DNA of 64,000 nt from positions 140,367,751 to 140,431,750 of the forward strand of contig CM068827.1 in NCBI GenBank assembly GCA_028554795.2, read 5' to 3'. This document shows, piece after piece, positions 30,158 through 45,625 of the stretch; the stretch's first letter is position 1, and each line of letters opens with the position of its first letter. A program made the translations under genes and the position numbers. The notes under the pieces were generated by a model. That model was not told where the DNA came from and ran no database searches. It saw only the letters and a list, made by a program, of their open reading frames with translations. Origin of the DNA: Sinohyriopsis cumingii (lineage: Eukaryota > Mollusca > Bivalvia > Unionida > Unionidae).

Positions 30158-30915
30158 GGATCGGTTCAAGTTAGACATGAAAATGATGTTCATGATTATC
30201 TTCATCAATAATGCTTTTTAATTTCTGATCTAATGTAAACATAACACATCTACCTAGATAACATCTGTAATATTCATAATCATTAATGACCCAGTCATTG
30301 AAACTGAAGGATAGTATTTACTTGTACTTTTTATTGATCGAGAAATCTGAGGTATTTTGGCTGAGCAATTAGTATTCAGAGTTAACAATTTTCAGGCATG
30401 TTAAAATAACTTCATTTCATTTAATCAGACGTATCTACATGGTATTATTCGCTACACAGGTCCATCTCTTTATATCAGTTTACGGTTACATACAATTTGC
30501 TATCTATAAACGAAATATTCACAGAAGATTGACAACAGTGATACACATAGACTCAACTGTGATACATTTTGACTGTGTTGTTATTGCTTGTGAACCACTG
30601 AATCTTTTAAGTGCGGAAAGGACTTGTCAAGTCAGTTAGTTTCAGATTAAACAGAACAAGGCAGTCTACCAACAGATAAGCAGATACAGCCCTAATGCAT
30701 CTGGCTGTGGCAAAGGATGAGACCTGTATACTGTTACAGGGTGAGGGACTCCAAGAACTCTAAACATGCATTAAAAAAACTCCACAAATCTTGCAACTGG
30801 CATATTTGCTGCATGTCTGGGCTAACCAGAAAATCTTGATATTATGTAACAGACAACAGACATTCTGACTGTGAGAAGCATTTTATTAACACTTTAGACT
30901 TTATGGAGCTGGGTT
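29615..30915. other. Left flank of the palindromic transposon
   Basis: Apart from the TA microsatellite no repeat or exon is recognised. The last bases before the terminus are GCTGGGTT. Confidence 0.5.
30084..30152. repeat. (TA)n microsatellite
   Basis: Uninterrupted TA for about 68 bp, roughly 760 bp left of the transposon terminus. Confidence 0.95.
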
Positions 30916-30929
30916 CCCCTGTGAAAAAA
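30916..30929 (+). repeat. Left terminal inverted repeat
   Basis: CCCCTGTGAAAAAA directly abuts the left palindrome array. It pairs with the inverse of 41,725-41,738, differing at two of 14 positions. The preceding bases read GGTT. Confidence 0.6.
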
Positions 30930-31215
30930 TCATGAACTGTTCATGAATTGTTCTTGAACTAGTTCATGAACTGGTTCATGAATTAGTACCTGAACAGAAA
31001 ATGGCCACTTCATGAATCTTCAGTTCTTGATTTGTTCATGAATAGTTCATGAACTAGTTCATGAACTGTTCATGAACTATTCATGAACTGGTTCATGAAC
31101 TATTCATGAACTGGTTCATGAACTAGTTCATGAACTATTCATGAACAAATCAAGAACTGTTCATGAACAGAACATAAATCTAGTTCATGAACTAATGTTA
31201 TTGTTCATGAACTCC
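30929..31215. repeat. Left subterminal array of GTTCATGAAC palindromes
   Basis: About 18 copies of the core TCATGA are packed into 287 bp. Around ten are the perfect 10-bp palindrome GTTCATGAAC, and the rest carry one-base changes such as TTCATGAAT or ATTCATGAAC. Spacers are mostly TA, TG or single bases, so units recur about every 11-13 bp. The minus-strand BEN gene ends about 430 bp to the right. Being self-complementary in each unit and as a whole, the array could fold into hairpins. Its place beside the terminus suggests transposase or accessory-protein binding sites (inference). Confidence 0.9.
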
Positions 31216-31551
31216 GTTCTTTATAGTTTATGGAAGTAAATTTCATGAAATTCAATAACATCTCTTTCTGTGAAATAGAAGCTCAGATTGATGATGCTGA
31301 TTATGAAAAGATACACGGGAAAGCTTTTGAAAAAGCAAAAAAGCAAATAATAGTTTTCCTGTGAAAATAACTTTCCCTTTGACTACTAACATCTTTAGTA
31401 ATAGTCCTTGTGTGCAGATGGGTGTATACAATTTTAGATTAAATGTTGCACTGCAGATTAGTTTTCTAGAAACACACAAATGTCAAAATACATTTATGCC
31501 AATCCTGTTTAAAATTGAAGCACTATTTAAAAATCATTGACAAATATCAAA

Positions 31552-31572
31552 TTTATTAGAACAGAATTTATT
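31552..31572 (-). promoter_or_regulatory. Polyadenylation signals of the BEN gene
   Basis: Two minus-strand AATAAA hexamers (TTTATT on the plus strand at 31,567-31,572 and 31,552-31,557) lie 80-100 nt past the stop codon at 31,652. This is the expected place for cleavage and polyadenylation signals. Confidence 0.5.
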
Positions 31573-31651
31573 AAAAATGTTTTATCATTTCATAATGATA
31601 TTGATCACAATTAGGGTGACCGATGTATATATATATATAAAAAAGAACCTG

Positions 31652-32117
31652 TTAACTTCTCCTCAGGATTTTTTGTAAGTTTTCAAGTTTCTTGTAAAAC
31701 AAGTCCTTGTCCATTGTGGTACACTGTAAAACTAACAATTCCAGCTTGCTCAGTTTTTGAATATCAAGTGGTGGTCTTACAGTGCCCACACATTTAATGG
31801 TTTTTTTCCCTGTTCTTGAAGAATTCTTTAATTCATCCTTTGAGAAAATCTTCAGACATAACACTTTAAAAATGTCTTTATCACATTTTATGTGTTGAAC
31901 ACTTTTTTTAATGTCATCAAGAGTGTCTTCCTTTGGAGCAGAAACACTGCAGCATTCTCCCTCTGCTGCAGGCTGTTTTACTTCTTGAACACTCGATTCA
32001 CCACTGACATCCTGCAGAGAATTTCTCTCTTCAAGTTTTCGTAATTTCCGTCTTAAATACTTATTGTCTTCCTTGAGTGCTTTAACGTCGTCTTCCAGTT
32101 TTCTAATGCGTCTATCC
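31652..32117 (-). CDS. BEN gene terminal exon: coiled coil plus BEN domain
   Basis: The acceptor is a TTATACAG tract read on the minus strand, and the exon runs to TAA at 31,652-31,654. It encodes residues 203-357. First comes a heptad-like charged helix (RDRRIRKLEDDVKALKEDN and on), then an acidic linker, then the BEN domain ending near the C-terminus (KILRRS). Having the BEN domain last and preceded by a coiled coil fits a DNA-binding dimer. Confidence 0.78.
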
Positions 32118-35100
32118 CTGTATAAAATTAGATGCAAGACGATAAACAACAACGATACTATTTTGTTAATGTCTTAATATTTACTAGATGTCATCATGTG
32201 TAAACAGTTAAATGTTGCAGATTTCACAAAGCATAGTTTTGATAATGCAAAATACAGATTTCTAATACAGCTAGAGCCTATTACACTCCCTATTTCCATT
32301 TCAGCCGAATCTGGGTAGCAACTAGCTTATCCTAATAAAAATCTGATATGATTATAAAAATACACCAGGAGTACCAATGTGTGTGTGGGGGGGGGGGGGG
32401 GGGGAATAAAAAAAATTACCTAATGGAGAATTAAATGACATTTTGCCAGTTAGCTTTTTGTGCATAGAAGTTTTTATAAATCTCATTGTAAAGATGAAAG
32501 GTAGCACCCCACCCATTCCGTAACTTGTGAAAATAAAGACCAGAATACTGTGAAAATTATGTGCATGTTGTCACTGTGTACCAATGTTTTCCTTCATGGT
32601 GTCAAGCATAAAGGGGTTCTTCCTCTCACCAAGGGCAATTTACTATGAAGTTTCATGACCCTGGGTGTTATATATCCTGGCTTATTGCACAGAATGCCCA
32701 TGTCCACATGAGGTTATAGCAAAGCTTGACCATTGACCCCCAAAACAATAGGGCTTCTCCCTGGGGCAATATAACTGTCAAGTTTCATGCTAGTAAGTGT
32801 AACATGCTTTCAATGTTATTATCCCTAAAGGTCAACCTTGCAAAAATATTCAGTTGATGGAATATCTATACAATTTTACCTGGAGTTGTTGCTCTCACTT
32901 TCTTTTCTGAGGTAGTCTATTCCCTCATTTGATCCCTTTACTGCAAGTTAAAGGAAGATAAATTAGATGAATATTTACATGCATCAAAAAAGAATACAAG
33001 TTATGGAAACGAACATTTATAGAAAATGCAGGGTTCTTACATGAATTCCGATAGTGGCCGACTTTTCCCAAAACTGACTGAACCAAGAGAAGGTGTATTT
33101 AAAAAGTGCGTGTTAAATACAGGAGTTTATTGGAACTGTCATCACTATGTAATCAGATGTGAAACATCCCTTAAGAAAGCTACTCATTTTAAGTTTTGTT
33201 TTACATGTAACTATTATGACCAGGACATTTAATGGCCAACCAATATTGGTTGAACAGATTGCTGTTTTAATGGCCCATTCATATACTTAACGTCATTATA
33301 AGTAAATCTCATTATTACATTTCTATTATTTTTTAACATGCTCAGATTGTAAGTCTAGTTCTTAAGTACATTTCTGTTAAGCAATTAATATTTGATAAGC
33401 TATAAATCAACATCTCAAATCTGATGTACATTAAATAACCCAATACATATATACATGTCAAGCTTTAGTCTTATTCATTTTACAAATAGAATCAATGTAA
33501 AATATTCAATCACCTGGTAACATCTTGGATATCAGAATATTATGAAACTTATAAATTTAAAGCAGAGTGACCCAAATAACATTCCTGACAAACAGAAATG
33601 AAATGATATTTGCAGTTTTGGAAAAATTCAGACTTTGCTCACAGACTGAAAATAATTAAATGGACTAATAGCAGTTTGGGAAAAGCTATTTAAACTTGAC
33701 TCATTTGAAACCAGTGGGCAGAATCCAATTAAATTTAGCAATTTAAGGATATTAAGTTTGTAGGTGTCCTTTAAAAATAATTAAAGACAGAATATAAGAC
33801 ATGGGAGCATTTCATACTTTGTGGTACCAATCCATCCATTTTGGGTAACTTCTTGTTAGGAGTCGTCTTTTCTGGAGTGATCATATTTGGAGTGGCCGTT
33901 TTCTTTGTTGCTATCTTCTTTGGCGTGGCCATCTTCTCTGGGACTGCAGCACTCTTCTTTGGGGTTGAAAGGTGTGGTTTGTCAGTCACTGATGGGACTG
34001 TATAAGAAATATTTTAAAGAATTTGCTGTGGGTTGAATGAAAGGCAGCATTTAATCAAACAATAACATTCTTAATTAAGCTTTAATATGCATATTCATTT
34101 TCAGTTACACAACAAGCCAAGGTGGTAGCTTATACTGCTTGATGGATCTTTTGTTTCTGTTCTACTCTTGCAGGACAATAGGGAATTTTCCCAGTCATTA
34201 AGTATTAAACTCATTAGTGTTTGCAAATATTGTTGGTAAAATAAATGTTTAAGTTATTAATTTTAGGTTCAACTTTAATCCATATATTCATTTTTTCAGT
34301 CATAAAAATGTTTAAAATAAGATTGTCAACAACTGTCTTTTGGCAAGACATTATTATTTTCATCGAGATTTGTTTAATATAAATTAGTTTTCATTATTTG
34401 TAGTTAAAGTCTATACAGTCTGTATAGTTTTCTGAAAATGTCATACCTTCTGGTACCAATCCACCCAATTTCTCCTCAGTCTTTGGAGTAGCTGTAACCT
34501 TCTTGGTTGAAGCAACTGGTGTGTCAGTCATGAATGGGACTGCATGAGAAATATTTTAAAGAATGTGCTAAAAAGTTGATATATTGGAAAAAATAGTACC
34601 TACATGGACTAAATCACTATTTAATACAAATTTAGTGTTATTAAAACTTTAAGTATGCTTGTAAATATATATGTTCAATTAAGTTATCATTTACACATCC
34701 CTACCTTAAAATAAGCCAAGTTTGGTGCTGTAATGCAAGTTTGAATTATTGCAATCTAACTGAATCTATATTGGCTGCATATGTATACACACACACACAT
34801 ACTCACTGAATTCATTCTTGATTTTCGTTATCCTCTCTTCTTCTTCATCTACATGTGCATTGACTCCAAGGAGGAATTTTTTAAAATGCACTTCAATCCT
34901 CTCTATAGATGACTTGTTCTCTGAAATTCGATTTAAAAAAATGTGTCCATTAACAGACTGAACACGTTATTACCGTTTCGCTTCTTTAGACCTCAAAAGT
35001 ATGAAAATTATCCAATGCACGGCTACCGTATTAAAGCTAACCACTCTTCCAGTTCGAACATTTACACCCAATAGTTAATGAAAATAAACCAAATTCCGCT

Positions 35101-35555
35101 TCTGATCTATACACATGTACAATTTCACTAGCTTATCAGGTTTCATATATTGCGATCAAAATCTCTTATATCTATACCGATAGCAACATTTATGATTGTA
35201 TTTTTTTTTAAAAGTGGACGATGGTGAAATGTGACATCAAACTTGTAGGCTACTTTTCTATCGTTAATCGATGTTCATATAGGCTTGCCGTAGACAAATA
35301 TTTTTTAAAAACTCTTCTGTATATGGAATGCTAACTTTTAAGTTCGAAAAGATAGATTGACCTCGATTTTGTTAAATGAAAACATGCAAACTTACCCGAA
35401 ATTGCAATTAAAATGGCCGGATAAACTTTTCTCAGATAATATGCTTGCACCGTACTTCCTACAGTTAAAGAACCTTCCTTGATGCAGGTTTCTTTCAAGA
35501 CAGACCAGTTGTTTTCTTGTGTCCAGTAAACAAGGATGCTGCGACTGCTTGCCAT
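31652..35555 (-). CDS. BEN-domain protein, transposon-encoded, six exons
   Basis: Exons by GT-AG sites and phase are 35,555-35,396; 34,920-34,807; 34,539-34,447; 33,997-33,818; 32,940-32,880; 32,117-31,652. They sum to 1,074 nt, that is 357 residues plus stop. Phase is kept across all five introns (1,1,1,1,2) with no internal stop. Residues about 7-53 (VYWTQ, then VQAYYLRKVYPAIL) look like a Tudor/SH3-like barrel. Residues about 124-180 are a Lys/Thr/Pro-rich linker with repeated TPKK-like motifs. Residues 203-235 form a charged coiled coil, and 282-357 match a BEN domain (IFSKDELKNSS, then PPLDIQKLSKLELLVLQ). BEN domains are known DNA-binding and dimerising modules. The gene is divergent from the transposase gene and lies inside the same terminal arrays, so I infer a transposon accessory protein that may bind GTTCATGAAC. 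A captured host regulator is an alternative. The start is the first ATG of the open exon, in an AAGATGGC context. Confidence 0.8.
32118..32879. repeat. BEN gene last intron with nested repeat and poly-G
   Basis: This 762-bp intron holds a G-tract at 32,387-32,403. At about 32,580-32,850 lies a degenerate interspersed repeat of the type also seen at 2,740-3,220 and 57,930-58,170 (runs such as TGACCCCCAAAACAATAGG and TTCCCTACC-like text). The repeat is not part of the coding sequence. Confidence 0.4.
33818..34560 (-). repeat. Tandem exon duplication inside the BEN gene (exons 3 and 4)
   Basis: Exon 3 (34,539-34,447) and exon 4 (33,997-33,818) both open with a TCCCAT...GTGACTGACA-type sequence (minus strand) and both close with GGATTGGTACCA just before the donor. 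The upstream intron ends are also alike (TTTAAAATATTTCT...CAG). The shared exon borders and flanking intron indicate a local duplication. Exon 4 has since gained extra Lys/Thr/Pro-rich units. Confidence 0.7.
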
Positions 35556-36399
35556 CTTTTTTTTTTGTTGTGTGTGGGGGTTTTTGTTTCACACGTGCGG
35601 TTTATCGGCAATGCGCATGCTCAACAATTGTCCGTTTTTGTTTCTTTTATTAGTAAACAATATATAGTAGTTATTTATGAAGTTCCAAAACAAAGAAATA
35701 TATTTATCTACAAACATCGTTTAATCTTAAAGAAAACAGCATCGACATTTTGCACGAAATAAAATATTATATCAACTAGCCAATCGCTTGCTTACAATCT
35801 TCGCGCGCTTTCTGCGACGGAGGATGGTAACTGATAGATGTCTGCTTGGACCCGAGTCTGCGGTACCAGAAAAAATGGCAGCCTTACGAAAACAAATGTC
35901 AATGTTCTGCGACATTTATACTTCACCAACCAGTGGAAGGATACTTTGAAGGTTCAGATACAATCGGGGTATGTTAATATGTTTAAAAATAAATAACTCT
36001 TCTTCTAAACCAGTTCAGCACGGTAACTCTTATCTGTAATGGTTATATATATATATATATTCAAGACCAAGGTCACTGGAAGTGATGCATTGCGGGAAAT
36101 TTGAGCCGCCATATTTGACTGAACTGTATATTCGAGGCAAGTTTATTTATTGTTTTGAGTTTTATACAAAAATACACGGTGCACCACCAAAGTCAGCAAG
36201 TTCTCAAAGTATTGTTATTTTATTTGGTTAGTTAAAATTTCAGTGATTTTGTTTGATACTGAACAATTCGCTGTAAAATATCATTGTAACTTTGTAGAAA
36301 AAGGAATTTTATGCATAACTTTGTAACATAATACCTCTATTCCGGTAAAATTTGAACTAGGTGCAGTAATTTCATATTTCTATTTCAGTTCAATCCAGT
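35556..36399. promoter_or_regulatory. Shared divergent promoter region of the transposon gene pair
   Basis: The two start codons are 844 bp apart and face away from each other. The region is richer in CpG than its surroundings around 35,600-35,890. It contains an inverted CCAAT (35,780), an NRF1-like TGCGCATGC (35,613) and a YY1-like GCCGCCAT (36,100). A GGG|GTATGT donor at 35,968/35,969 and a TTTCTATTTCAG acceptor ending at 36,388 would place a non-coding first exon upstream of the transposase start. A short (TA)n tract lies near 36,045-36,060. Motif calls are by eye only. Confidence 0.45.
35820..35968 (+). other. Candidate 5' non-coding exon with a short upstream ORF
   Basis: An ATG at 35,876 opens a 24-codon reading frame that stops at 35,950, ahead of a good splice donor at 35,968. 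Joined to the acceptor at 36,388 it would form the 5' UTR of the transposase mRNA, with the main start 12 nt into the next exon. The left edge is a guess. Confidence 0.35.
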
Positions 36400-39300
36400 A
36401 TGGCGACCAAACAAACCAGTTACAGTGAAATAGTTGTAAACGGTCGAAAGAAGTATCAGTGTTTGATTTGCACAAGGATAGTGGGCAGTAAACATAACAT
36501 CTTACATCATTTAAGTGGAGTACACAGTTTATGTGAGTAGAAATGTTTTTACATATTTAAAAATATAAAATTTTTGGGGAAAAAATTATGTCTTAGCACA
36601 TAATATATGCTATATATGGCAAATAGTTGTAATGATGGAGGTAGACCTCAGACAACTTAACACTAGCTTCCATTTGTGGCACAAGTAACAAGCAAACATT
36701 CTTACAAAATCTGAGGACTAAACCCACAATCACAGCATTGAGACTTGTCAGTCACTCTTCAGACAGTTTTTAATCACTACACCACAGAGAACTATAAAAA
36801 ATACATTGAATGTATTGCATCCTTATTCAAAATTCCACTTTAGGTCATGATCACAAGAAATGAAACAATTACTAAATAAAATGATGATTCATGTAAAAGC
36901 TTTGATTAGACTTGTGTATTATCACTGCCTTTCCATTTCATTTTGCCATCACTTGCTTTGTTTTGTTAAGTTAGTGTCTTAGTATTTCTCATTTTTTATA
37001 TAGCTCCAGTCAAACGAATCTACAAACTGCATGTTTTTGACAAGTCAGTCAAAGTTCCTGTGCGTACAGCTTATCGATGGAAGACAAGTCAGTCAAAGGA
37101 TATGGCTACATGCTGCAATGAATCTGATAATATGCCATTAGATTGTAAGTGCACAGAGTGTTGTAAAAAGCATATACCCATGATTTTAGTCATGAAATAA
37201 TGCTAAATCATAAATTCTACTTTGAAGCGGCACTAGCCAGAAGTAAAGTATATGGTAACATAAGCAAAAACTATGATTGTTTTTTATAGATCAACTTCAT
37301 AATCATTAACTGATGAATATTGCCATATTTGTGATCTTGTTTAAAACAAGTTCACATTTCACCTAAAAGTTATTTATGTCTGCCTCAATTAAGTAGTTTA
37401 TTTTTAGGAAAATTTTATTTTTACAACAGCCACCAGTGGTTATCAGAATAAATTGCTGAATGAAACAATAAAAACATTATCATTTTATGAAATGAAAACA
37501 GTATCACAGACTTAGTGTATATTATTATACTGTTCATTGTTTACCCTCCCTAACATTCATATTTAAATTTATTATAACTTGCAAACTTTTCTCACTAAGG
37601 AAAATGGCTAGTTGTATTCCGAAAGTCAGACTTTAGCTCACAAAATGTTACTTTATTTTAATCCTAATGCTGAAATCATACCAAGTGTAAACAACATTGC
37701 TTAAAGTTGTCTTATTTTTCAGATGATGATAAGAATGCATCATCTTCAGAAAGAAGTCTAACCTATCCTACAGCTGGATCCTCAATAATCCCAGATGATG
37801 TAGCTGCCGATGTATGCTACACAGATAATGATACATGTAGCTCTTTATCAACATGCAATTCAAATGAAAGCGAGGTCACATCTGTACTATCAGACTCAAA
37901 TGACTCTATAATATCGGAAACCTCTTCAAATGTTGAATCTTCTGATAATTTTTCTGATGTGGAGACCAGCAGTAAAGAAGATGCAAATTCATTAGGAAGA
38001 GACAGCAATGATGAAGTGAAAAAGATGCAACCACAGCCTCTTTCAGAAAATGAACTGCAAGCCTTAAAAATTCTTTCCCTCTTTCAAAGACATAATTTAA
38101 CAACCAGTGCCTGTAAAGACATTCTTCAAACTATGAAAAGTGTGTTCCCTAACTCCAAATGTGTTGATGTCCTAGACTTGGATTATATATATTCTTTAGT
38201 TGATATCCACCCAATTAAAGAAATACACTATTGTGACACATGTGACGAGGTATTTCCAAACAACTTGGATGAATTTAGATGTAGCTTGGAAAATTGTGGA
38301 GGCTTTCGTTACAAAGGAAGATTGTTGGATCAACAAAAAAAGGATCGACAACCGAGGAAAAGTTTTATACTGGCTGATACCAAAAAACAGTTGAAACATC
38401 TGCTTGAGACACCAGGTATAAATAAGTTTATGCTTGTATATTTAGAATCCTTAACTGAAGAACTGTGATTACTTTTACATAGTTCTAAGGGAAAATTTAT
38501 TGAGGAGCATTGCACATTTCTTGTTTGATAGGGCAATATCATGAATTGTTTGCACTTAATAAGGTTAATACCGACAAAATTAGTTAAGCAAATCTTATGT
38601 TCAAATAAGGCATATACATTAAATGTAGCTCTATTTTGTTGAAGAACAATTACCTGTAAATATAATCTTCAACTGAAGTAATTCTATTTCTTGTCTTTTC
38701 CAGGTATTTCGAAAGAAATTGAAAATTGTAAGGCAGCACTTGAGGACAGAAAAAGCTCTAGAATTTTGACAGACATAACTGATGGGTTTGCGTACAGAGA
38801 TATGCTGAATGAAGATGGTTTTCTACATCATCCATACAGCTTAAGTGCCATCATCAATACAGATGGAGTAAATCTGTATTCATCCTCGAAAATAGAATTG
38901 TGGCCACTTTTTATGGCTATAAATGAGTTGAGTCCCAAAGCAAGATTTTCGAGGGATAACATGTTATTGGTTGGGATATGGCAAGGAAAGGGAAAACCCC
39001 CTTTTAAACAGTATATGGCAAGTTTCAGTGAAGAAATGAATAGTTTGTACAATGAAGGGGTTGAAGTTAATTGGGACAACAAATTAATTGTTGCAAAAGT
39101 TGCTGTTATTTGTGGTGTATTTGATCTACCAGCTAAAGCAGGTATTCTAAATATGACATATTTTAATGGGACGGAGGCATGCATTACCTGTGAAGAGCCT
39201 GGTATTGTTGTAAAACAAGGAAAAGGAACATCGCGATGTTATCCTCACAGGACTGTTGAAACACAGTATCCACTACGAAATAATCAAGAAGTTTTGCAAA

Positions 39301-40523
39301 ACATGCAAAATGCAACAACGACAAAACGGATTAAAGGTTTTAAGGGCTTGTCTGGTCTTGCATTTCTTCAGTCCTTTGACCTGGTTAAAGGTGTAGTACC
39401 AGATTACATGCATGGGATTTTATTAGGTATAACAAATACATTATTGAGCAAATGGTTCTCACCAACACAAAGTGGTAAGAATTATTTTATTGGAAAACAT
39501 ATTAAAACTGTTTCCAAAAGACTTCAGAATATTCAACCTCCAATCAGTATTGAGAGATTACCCCGTGATTTGGAAAAACATTATGCAAACCTAAAAGCTA
39601 CAGAATTGCAAGCATGGTTGTTGTTTTATGCACTCCCATGTTTAGATGGAATACTACCAGAAGTTTATCTGAAACATTTTGCATATCTATCAGAAGCTGT
39701 GTATATTCTTCTTGGAGACAATATATTGCCAGGACAATTGGACAGAGCAGCTGTTCTTTTTGACAAGTTTTACTCTTCCTTTGCTGATTTATATGGTCAA
39801 GGCTCAAGTGGTCTCAATGTCCATAATGCTTGTATTCATTTGGTTTGGTATGTAAAGCTGTGGGGACCAATGTGGGCATGGAGCTGTTTCCCATTTGAGG
39901 ATAATAATGCAATGTTGCTACAGTCTGTACATGGAACGGGTAATGTTACGAAGCAAGTAATGAAGTACAAACAAGCAGTGTCAAGTTTGCGCAGAAAGGG
40001 TGTTTATTCAGCATCAACAACGCTCTGGAAAAAGACTGCTGAAGCTGCAACTTGTGATATATCAGGGAAGGTGAAATATTTTAGAGACGGTGAAGTGACA
40101 GATGAAGTTTTGGCTACATTAAATTTAGACTGTCATATGGATTTGAGAAAGGTTGACAGAATTAGCATAGGTAGCAAACAATTCTGCTCTTCACAGTACT
40201 TGAGAATGCAGAGAAGAGTCTGTAATGTTGTGCTATATAACCAAAGCAAAATTGGACGTGTTAAATATTTTGTATACAATACATCAAATAAGACTGTACA
40301 TGCAGTTTTGATAAAATATGATGCTGCAAAAACAAAACTTTCACAACTACCAGCTGGAAAACACCTGTTAGCAGTTAAAGCTATGTTGACAATAGATGTG
40401 GTACCTGCTGAAGAGTTGATCGACACTTTAGTTTACATAAATGTCAGTCCCTCTTCATCACCTGAAGCAGAAGCATATGTTGCAGTGATGCCAAACTGTC
40501 ATGGACATGCCATTTTCAAATGA
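36400..40523 (+). CDS. tnp2/CACTA-like transposase with N-terminal zinc finger, four exons
   Basis: Exons are 36,400-36,532, 37,004-37,144, 37,723-38,415 and 38,704-40,523, all GT-AG and all phase 1. They sum to 2,787 nt, 928 residues plus stop, with no break. Residues 21-42 form a C2H2-like finger (C21, C24, H36/H37, H42). Residues about 92-200 are acidic and Ser-rich. A zinc ribbon uses C262, C265, C278 and C283. The catalytic region in exon 4 shows NTDGV (D376), GVFDLPA (D463), a Cys-His knuckle (C482, C485, C501, H504), VPDYMHG (D556) and FPFEDNN (E721/D722), the layout of Transposase_21 (tnp2) RNase-H-like enzymes. It would cut and join element ends in the nucleus. The start ATG lies just after a spliced acceptor, in a CAGTATGGCG context. 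Similar host-annotated proteins exist in invertebrates, but the terminal arrays argue this copy belongs to the transposon. Confidence 0.88.
36620..36795 (-). repeat. tRNA-like SINE fragment in transposase intron 1
   Basis: Read on the minus strand, a GTGTAGTGATTAAAAAC box followed by GTGGGTTTAGTCCTC resembles the A and B boxes of a tRNA-derived SINE. It sits wholly within intron 1 and leaves the splice sites intact. Confidence 0.35.
37723..38415 (+). CDS. Transposase exon 3: acidic Ser-rich region and zinc ribbon
   Basis: The acceptor is CTTATTTTTCAG and the donor ACCAG|GTATAA. The exon encodes residues 92-323. The first hundred residues are rich in Ser, Asp and Glu. The last hundred hold a paired-Cys zinc ribbon (HYCDTCDEVF, then RCSLENCGGFRY). 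An apparent ATG at 37,707 lies in the intron and is not the start. Confidence 0.8.
38704..40523 (+). CDS. Transposase exon 4: catalytic tnp2 core
   Basis: This 1,820-nt exon starts after TTGTCTTTTCCAG and ends at TGA (40,521-40,523). It carries residues 323-928, including all predicted catalytic acidic residues, the inserted Cys/His knuckle and the conserved DYMHG and GPMWAWSCFPFEDNN blocks. The ATG at 38,691 belongs to the intron; phase shows exon 3 joins here as ...TPGISKE. Confidence 0.88.
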
Positions 40524-40840
40524 TTCTAGCATCAGTAATGTTGACTGAATATACTTGTACTTTATGGGGACTGAATGGGATGCAAATGTCAACACTTTAA
40601 ACATGCTGTACTGGTTACTTTTATGTAAAATGATAATTTACAATTATTTACTCACATCAAACTTAGAATCCATAGCCTTACTCTTATTGAATAGATTATT
40701 TTGGTTCCTCTTTAGCATGTTTGACTACAATACAAACAATACACCATCCATCGAGGAACAGCACAGACATGGAATTTTACGCACCTTTTCCCCACCTTTA
40801 CAACAATCCTAATTGAAGTTTTTTTTACTTTTGGAAGGAA

Positions 40841-40846
40841 ATTAAA
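40841..40846 (+). promoter_or_regulatory. Polyadenylation signal of the transposase gene
   Basis: ATTAAA lies about 320 nt past the transposase stop. It is a common variant hexamer, and no closer AATAAA was seen. Confidence 0.35.
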
Positions 40847-41347
40847 GGTCTTTATCACAATTTTTGCCCAAAAGTAACAAAATTTCACTTAGGTAAAGAT
40901 GAAAATGAGATGCACACAAATTCAAAACTTGGCTGGGCTGTTCCTTGATAACAAGTCTAAAAAGTATATACAGAATAATTAGGCCATGTACTGAAACATG
41001 AATATATTTAGAATAATACATAATGTATTTAAGAATATGGTACAATGCACTTCCAGTGTGTTCATTTGGACATAATTTGTTGTGAAATAGGTTGATGTAT
41101 GTAAGCATGTACTGCTAATCTTCAATCACATTTAATTTCAACAGATTAAATCACATTTTGCAGATATCTTCAATTCTTGGAACTTAAAAAATTAGTTACT
41201 ATTTTGTTCATCGCCTTTTTTAAGAAAATGCAATCAAAATTCTCAAATTTAATTCTTCATAAACTGGATTGCTTCAAGGACAGTTGATGAACTACAAGTA
41301 TGCATAACAAGTTTCTAAAATTGTAATTTGTTTGCCTATTTGGTTCA

Positions 41348-41723
41348 GTACTTAACAGTTCATGTACTATTATAAGTTCAAGAACTTAAATTTCATGAAC
41401 TGATATTCATGAACAGTTCATGAACTAAGGAAAAGTTCAAGAACTTTAATTTCATGAACAGTTCGTGAATTTGGAGGAAAAGTTAAAGAACTTGAATTTC
41501 ATGAACTGATGTTCATGAACAGTTCATGAACTCAGGGGAAAAGTTAAAGAACTTGAATTTCATGAACTGATGTTCATGAACAGTTCATGAACTCTAAAGA
41601 AAAGTTCAAGAACTTGAATTTCATGAACTGATGTTCATGAACAGTTCATGAATTAATTTGACTTTTCACAACCAGTTCATGAACTGTTCATGAAGTTCAT
41701 GAAGCGTTCATGAACTTAAGAAC
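41348..41723. repeat. Right subterminal array of GTTCATGAAC palindromes with 61-bp super-repeat
   Basis: About 17 TCATGA cores lie in 376 bp. The middle part repeats as a unit of roughly 61 bp (starting near 41,432, 41,479, 41,540 and 41,601). Each unit has an AAAGTTMAAGAACTT-type spacer, then TTTCATGAACTGATGTTCATGAAC, read as two sites, then a third site. The last 50 bp before the terminus are four tightly packed sites. The arrangement differs from the left array, which has no long spacer unit. Confidence 0.88.
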
Positions 41724-41724
41724 T

Positions 41725-41738
41725 TTTTTTCGCTGGGG
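41725..41738 (-). repeat. Right terminal inverted repeat
   Basis: TTTTTTCGCTGGGG, the inverse of CCCCAGCGAAAAAA, closes the element. The following bases TTCTTG give the TT (or GTTC) match to the left flank. Confidence 0.6.
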
Positions 41739-42102
41739 TTCTTGTGATACTCGAGAAATTTAAAAAGACACAAAATCCATTGACTCCATGCTGCAGAAAA
41801 GATAACTGACATTACAATCAAACCAGTCATTAAGAGCACCTGCTCATAAAGACTGATACTTAAGGATTCATTTTCTTAAGTTCTTTTAAATGTTGCTTCT
41901 CTATAAAGGGCACATACCCACACAGAAGAACTTTTCAGTGGTACCTACTGCCCATTACAGACAAATTTCACTGGAAATGCTGATTATGAATTTTGTGCAT
42001 CTTTTTTAGAAATAAAAATCATTTAGTGTATTTTCCCTATACTTCAGAAGTTGATATTTTAACATAATTTGAATATTGTTGATTAATATTTCATTGCTGT
42101 TT

Positions 42103-42413
42103 TGACCGCTCCGGTGGCCTAGTGGTTAGAGCGTCCGCCTCAGAAGCGGGATGTCGTGGGTTGGAACCCCGGCTGAGTCAAAAATGGTACTGACAGCTGC
42201 CTCGCTTGGTGCTCAGCATTAAGAGGTTAGTGTTATGACTGGTCGGCCTGCTGTCAGGACAATGTGACTGAGTGGGACATCATGCTACGTGTCTGCGGCA
42301 TGATGCCCCAGTGCTAGACATCACTATAAACTGCCACACTGCAGACATCGTAGCGATATGACTGAAATTTTTTTTAAAGCTACATAACAAATCCTAATCA
42401 CATACACACACAC
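42103..42413 (+). mobile_element. tRNA-derived SINE, full-length copy
   Basis: The head GGCCTAGTGGTTAGAGCG (A box) and GGGTTGGAACCCC (B box) are tRNA-like. The body runs GCTGCCTCGCTTGG, GGTTAGTG, GGTCGGCC, GTGGGACATCATG, GCATGATGCCCCAGTGCTAGA, CTGCCACACTGCAGACATCG, and the tail is a short CA repeat. The element lies 365 bp right of the palindromic transposon. The body resembles the conserved central domains of widespread molluscan SINEs, but I cannot assign a named family. Confidence 0.75.
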
Positions 42414-45504: not shown

Positions 45505-45625
45505 GGGAGCTGCAGTAGCTCAGTTGGCAGAGCACTGGACTTGTGATCCAAGGGTTGCTGGTGCAATACCAGCCCAAGTTGGCTACTTCTGTGTTCTTAA
45601 GAAAGGTACTTTTTTCTCTTTTTTT
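45505..45625 (+). mobile_element. tRNA-like SINE, third family
   Basis: CAGTAGCTCAGTTGGCAGAG is a near-canonical tRNA A-box and D-arm region, followed by a GGTGCAATACCAG B box. The piece then runs into non-tRNA sequence with a T-rich tail. The acceptor stem does not close, so it is not a tRNA gene. Confidence 0.5.

Follow-up and report, generated by a model that had tools for sequence, protein, structure and literature searches.

A two-gene transposon of the CACTA/EnSpm type in the bivalve Sinohyriopsis cumingii, with a tnp2 gene, a BEN-like gene and palindrome arrays at both ends

The window analyzed here, a stretch of 64,000 nucleotides from the bivalve Sinohyriopsis cumingii (assembly GCA_028554795.2, contig CM068827.1, positions 140,367,751 to 140,431,750 of the forward strand), contains a complete DNA transposon of 10,823 bp at positions 30,916-41,738. 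Between its short inverted termini lie two divergent genes, one for a tnp2 protein and one for a protein with a BEN-like domain, and dense arrays of a short palindrome occupy both ends. The explanation that we consider best as a whole, and rather probable, is that this is an intact, recently mobile element from TRC, the animal branch of the CACTA/EnSpm superfamily, with a two-protein design, in which the BEN protein would bind the palindromes and assemble the ends for the transposase.

The left terminus, CCCCTGTGAAAAAA (30916-30929, + strand), and the reverse complement of the right terminus, CCCCAGCGAAAAAA (41725-41738, - strand), differ at 2 of 14 positions, and the dinucleotide TT stands on both outer sides (30914-30915 and 41739-41740), a 2-bp target-site duplication according to the comparison of copies. 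The preliminary description of this DNA had proposed a complete element with precisely these edges and with matching short inverted termini, and both proposals hold when the 2.9-Gb genome that contains the window is searched. Full-length matches to the left 785 bp were found in at least nine places and to the right 839 bp in at least eight; eight places are common to both, and the ninth left end is that of the locus C7b. These copy numbers are lower bounds (40 of 401 candidates were scored for the left end and 40 of 141 for the right), and in both lists decayed relatives come after the full-length copies. Twelve loci were examined, comprising the window, ten loci fetched through matches to its left end or to the palindrome, and C11. 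Both ends, with the edges of the window element, are present in eight of them; C7b has a left end only, and in C203, C11 and C13 neither end was seen with the pattern used.

The full-length copies, at least eight in number, measure 10,785-10,824 bp and diverge pairwise by 0.00-0.71%. All eight break off at the same bases on both sides; the left terminus is identical in the nine loci in which a left end was found, and a single base at the right end of copy C7a is the only difference among the termini. Their flanks are unrelated except for AT-type simple repeats and two matches, one of 33 bp and one of 199 bp at 75%. Every full copy carries CCCC at both ends, and six of the eight are bordered by a perfect 2-bp duplication, different in each case (TT, TG, GT, TA, AT, AA), a result for which our own arithmetic gives a chance of about 1e-6 to 1e-5. 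The exact common edges, the target duplications and the near-identical copies show that the element is mobile. Three of the copies, all on sequence C6 and within 140 kb, differ by no more than 0.01% and yet occupy separate sites with the duplications GT, TA and AT, which argues for recent local hops rather than the copying of a segment.

The copies are also largely intact: both genes are open, with all splice sites preserved, in seven of the eight (in C7a, tnp2 is interrupted by a stop at codon 499), and the BEN gene is intact in all eight. C203 is an old, rearranged copy in which both genes contain stops and frame breaks. An internally deleted relative of about 1.8 kb (L029:3007-4831, at C4:142.113-142.115 Mb) carries the terminus CCCCTGTGAAAAAA; its right end is degenerate, and its flanks show no matching duplication.

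The exon structures of both genes were predicted from reading frame and splice sites alone; all eight introns are GT-AG and no internal stop occurs, so that the two intact, divergent, spliced genes of the preliminary description stand as predicted in seven of the eight copies, that of the window included. The tnp2 gene, on the + strand, has four predicted exons (36400-36532, 37004-37144, 37723-38415 and 38704-40523) and codes for 928 aa. Its last exon, which ends in the stop codon, contains a Transposase_21 domain (PF02992, E=2.1e-11, 43.9 bits against a cut-off of 28.6), and its first exon contains a C2H2-like finger motif at residues 19-42 that falls below the Pfam cut-off (E 0.39). At least 191 proteins in the protein database match at E<=0.001 among 7993 scored, and most of the 120 listed carry PF02992. 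Among the matches listed, the named relatives are from clams, abalone, scallops, oysters, mussels, acorn worm and fish (Haliotis and Ptychodera are among the genera), the best of them from Mya arenaria at 76%; a search of viral contigs found no tnp2 relatives. The genome itself has about 50 more tnp2 loci, several of the distant ones having long open frames that contain no stop within the match (for example C15:119139768, C55:5991050, C29:4652424 and C3:135590095), so other tnp2 lineages in this genome may be intact.

These features place the element beside the TRC elements, the animal representatives of the CACTA superfamily, which were described in 2006 from Schistosoma mansoni (SmTRC1), with relatives in Aedes and Tribolium, and which have CCC-starting ends and 2-bp target duplications (PMC1636069). 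The same source treats tnp2 proteins as the transposases of CACTA elements. The likeness extends to the Transposase_21 domain, the CCC-starting termini, the 2-bp duplications (7 of 14 there, 6 of 8 here) and a second, fast-evolving protein that was suspected to be an analogue of TnpA (PMC1636069). The second protein of SmTRC1 is described there as resembling no other, and the main text of that paper does not use the word "subterminal" (PMC1636069). In the present element, by contrast, the second protein comes from a separate, divergent gene with a BEN-like domain, and dense palindrome arrays stand at both ends.

That gene lies on the - strand and has six predicted exons coding for 357 aa: exon 1 with the start codon (35396-35555), exon 2 (34807-34920), exon 3 (34447-34539), exon 4 (33818-33997), exon 5 (32880-32940) and exon 6 (31652-32117), which holds a coiled coil, the C-terminal BEN-like domain and the stop codon. 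Exons 3 and 4 begin and end alike (P..TD ... GLVP), which suggests an internal exon duplication.

The second protein very likely has a BEN domain. The last 82 aa score 20.8 bits (E=4.4e-4) with the Pfam BEN family PF10523, the whole protein 16.9 bits. A search of the genome with the last exon gave 29 matches, including the nine near-identical copies, C203, five closer decayed loci and eight distant loci at 30-47% identity. Of two such relatives scanned, one, 41% identical, passes the Pfam cut-off (24.6 against 23.2). When a profile of the family (five rows, one joined across a frameshift) was run against the whole PDB, two entries only appeared at E<=10, both with weak E-values, Insv (0.038) and Bsg25A (0.25), and both are BEN domains; hhalign of the family with fragments of four solved BEN domains gave a probability of 87.6%. 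An AlphaFold model of the domain, built from five aligned sequences, has a mean pLDDT of 74, and its 13 best Foldseek matches in the PDB are all BEN domains (probability 0.69-1.00), with TM values of 0.78 for Insv, 0.73-0.75 for BEND6 and 0.64-0.70 for NACC1. A single-sequence fold of exon 6 was confident for the preceding coiled coil only, with a mean pLDDT exceeding 90 in the first 30 residues of that stretch. A C-terminal helix with paired arginines is kept in both decayed relatives that were read (L052 and L054). We call the domain BEN-like by fold and profile, and not a curated member of the Pfam family, whose cut-off is a convention; with this qualification, the different second protein that had been anticipated, a BEN protein, is what profile and fold model indicate. 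Matches of this protein to bZIP and HAUS1 were set aside, as they are below cut-off and fall within the coiled-coil stretch.

The palindrome GTTCATGAAC, allowing one mismatch, occurs 41 times in the window, against a mean of 3.27 and a maximum of 10 in shuffled sequence (none of 100 shuffles reaches 41). Seventeen of these sites form the left array (30939-31212), 22 form the right array (41283-41715), two lie outside the element and the body of the element has none, which bears out the earlier statement that the arrays stand at the ends only. One further site, with two mismatches, starts at 30928. The sites of the left array are mostly spaced 11-12 bp apart, near one helical turn, and those of the right array lie partly inside a 61-bp tandem unit; the core of the arrays is CATG. 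Each of the eight full copies has 16-18 sites on the left and 22-23 on the right, and its body is free of them. A repeated motif confined to both subterminal regions is the arrangement of plant CACTA elements.

The genome also has a second, much more diverged element at C6:121.96-121.97 Mb, in which a BEN match (C6:121,962,233, - strand, 47%) and a tnp2 match (C6:121,970,545, + strand, 45%) lie 8.1 kb apart in the order and orientation of the window. By our own arithmetic, such a neighborhood would be expected by chance about 0.004-0.005 times, given 13 BEN loci (those besides the near-identical copies and C203), about 50 tnp2 loci, 10 kb on either side and 2.9 Gb. The 601 bases in which the left end of this element was expected contain AACCTGTGAAAATTTCATGAA, which agrees with the window terminus at 17 of 21 positions, though not at the first two, and after it come three palindromes with no more than one mismatch each. 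Only 2 of 1000 dinucleotide shuffles reach this terminus match and none of 1000 the palindrome count; not one of 173 equally sized host windows attains either value. The left terminus, palindromes, BEN and tnp2 are thus retained together in a decayed element.

Arrays without these genes also exist, at 19 loci (L030-L048). These form a single older non-autonomous family: from L030, BLAST reaches the other 18. Members have the same palindromes at both ends and the termini CCCCTAYGAAATGATCATGAA and CCCCTAYGAAAACAAATTCATGA (for example L030:2712-5590), and a sequence comparison found that, apart from the arrays, they do not resemble the window element. A left-type end with the CCCCTAYGAAA terminus was present in 16 of 22 scanned loci (L027-L048) at no more than 5 mismatches of 36, and eight insertions of 1.3-2.9 kb have both ends, two pairs among them with shared flanks. 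The preliminary description had named arrays without the genes at random positions as an outcome that would speak against it. Gene-less arrays do occur, which is the weakened form of that outcome; at the loci read, their positions are not random, and the arrays are not random genomic repeats but one family with related CCCC termini. At one of these loci (L042, about 547-717), several terminus-like units (CCCCTACGAAAATGTTCATGATAGATAGATGTCAAA) stand head to tail, as if the terminus had turned into a small satellite.

Plant CACTA elements generally have CACTA termini and a 3-bp target duplication; with termini CCCCTGTG and CCCCAGCG and a duplication of 2 bp, the present element is not a CACTA element in this strict sense. 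To our knowledge, the TnpA protein of maize Spm is not a BEN protein. Soybean Tgmt, too, has CACTA termini and a 3-bp duplication; further, the plant proteins TnpA and TnpD are products of a single unit with alternative splicing, and the plant subterminal motifs are GC-rich plus AT-rich and not the present palindrome (PMC2613891). What maize En/Spm and soybean Tgmt share with the window element is the plan itself: a tnp2 transposase with a DNA-binding protein, repeated subterminal motifs at both ends, and deletion derivatives (PMC2613891). In Spm, TnpA binds the repeated subterminal motifs and both proteins are required for transposition (PMC2613891). Non-homologous analogues of TnpA with different motifs are known in plants. 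The suggestion that the element is an animal counterpart of the En/Spm plan is supported, since a tnp2 transposase, a non-homologous second protein and subterminal arrays are all present.

The BEN domain has so far been known mainly from chromatin and viral proteins, and we know of no BEN protein encoded by a transposon next to its transposase. Several BEN domains have short palindromic targets: CATG/ACATGT for NACC1 and CCAATTGG for Insv and Bsg25A (PMC11472053, PMC7764960). The predicted fold is that of NACC1, Insensitive, Bsg25A, BEND6 and BANP, and BANP likewise combines a coiled coil with BEN (PMC11472053, PMC7764960); these proteins differ in being host chromatin or transcription factors, and their key helix residues are not securely aligned with the window protein. 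The array core, too, is CATG. In the simplest model, a BEN protein with its coiled coil would occupy both arrays and hold the ends for the transposase. The tnp2 protein would be the transposase, cutting at the CCCC ends and inserting with a 2-bp stagger. The BEN protein would most likely bind the TTCATGAA palindromes as an oligomer, coat the last ~300-450 bp of each end and join the two ends for the transposase, by analogy with TnpA in maize Spm. We infer that it binds the palindromes and is needed for transposition.

The strongest competitor, improbable but to be taken seriously, is that the tnp2 protein itself binds the palindromes through its N-terminal finger-like motif, and that the BEN protein acts elsewhere, for example by recruiting or blocking host chromatin factors, chromatin-related functions being those of most human BEN proteins (PMC11472053). 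That motif, which is below the Pfam cut-off, speaks for this reading. However, several BEN domains read short palindromes including CATG (PMC11472053, PMC7764960), and in plant CACTA elements it is the second protein that does the subterminal binding (PMC2613891). Somewhat less probable still is a BEN protein that binds the arrays as a repressor or silencer of the element and has no part in the transposition complex, a role that could appeal to Spm TnpA, which also regulates (PMC1636069, PMC2613891). Yet both arrays are situated past the 3' ends of the genes, and the 844-bp central region between the divergent genes (35556-36399), presumably a two-way promoter, has no site, as is true of the body, so that marking of the ends is likelier than control of promoters through these sites.

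It is quite unlikely that the BEN gene is a captured host passenger without a role and that some host factor binds the arrays. The weak Pfam score would suit a passenger, as would the result for the full BEN protein in the protein database, where no homologue was found at E<=1 among 3165 candidates; but the gene is intact in 8 of 8 full copies, and in the second element, only about 45% identical in tnp2, BEN again lies near tnp2 with terminus and palindromes. That the element is not mobile at all and reflects segmental duplication or an assembly artefact, for which the three near-identical copies inside 140 kb of one chromosome could be quoted, we dismiss: the flanks of the copies are unrelated and rule out segmental duplication, and identical edges, target duplications and full-length copies on six sequences (C3, C4, C5, C6, C7 and C18) leave this reading next to no probability.

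Several results nevertheless weigh against our interpretation, or parts of it. For the domain assignment, the window protein (16.9-20.8 bits) stays below the PF10523 gathering cut-off of 23.2 and the second in-genome relative scanned scores 13.1; direct searches of the PDB with the window protein alone returned no BEN chain; the best Foldseek E-value is 0.098, so all exceed 0.09 and none reaches 0.001; and with a four-sequence BEN profile, a comparison of low power, the exon 6 reading frame came first of the 621 in the window and yet did no better than the best of 500 shuffles, with one of which it tied. Of the DNA-contacting residues of NACC1, R429 aligns with the R of the motif VRPPLD (numbering counted by hand from named residues), while R468/R469 match the two C-terminal arginines in a hand alignment but not in the mafft alignment. 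For palindrome binding, NAC2 has been reported on a non-palindromic sequence (PMC7764960). Among the young copies, the palindromes are not more conserved than the spacers (left 8/170 vs 4/128, right 2/219 vs 4/244), variation is highest in the left array (12 of 300 columns), and in the BEN gene silent changes do not outnumber amino-acid changes (5 vs 11 variable codons). A scored tnp2 match lies within 20 kb of 1 of the 13 diverged BEN loci and of none of the other 12, with 72 of 216 tnp2 candidates scored. As for the target duplications, two of the eight full copies, C5 (AT/AA) and C3 (GA/CA), have no perfect one, and none of the eight two-ended non-autonomous insertions has a 2-bp duplication with the ends as placed.

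A more far-reaching reading, to which we give a fair but less than even chance, is this: the BEN protein would be an obligatory end-binding partner; BEN, palindromes and tnp2 would have remained associated while at least two families diverged; the element would be a genuine animal counterpart of Spm with two components; and the BEN chromatin proteins of animals might in part derive from such elements. Plant CACTA elements depend on a second protein that holds on to repeated sites near the ends, and for SmTRC1 such a partner was only postulated. Here the candidate partner has a nameable DNA-binding fold with solved structures, its candidate target occurs 39 times at the ends of the element, and intact, near-identical copies in one genome make the question directly testable. 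If the model is right, it places the BEN domain inside a transposition machine and predicts host BEN proteins of transposon origin.

The preliminary description knew of no element joining tnp2, BEN and a palindromic array. As to the variant this stands, and the BEN-like second gene and the palindrome arrays are new; the kind was already known, as animal TRC elements (PMC1636069). We found no literature joining CACTA/EnSpm elements with a BEN protein, in a search that left Repbase and subscription papers outside, so that a database entry may exist.

To the right of the element, two tRNA-like Rfam matches at 42108-42180 (31.1 bits) and 45515-45574 (40.5 bits) are possibly tRNA-derived short interspersed elements (SINEs).

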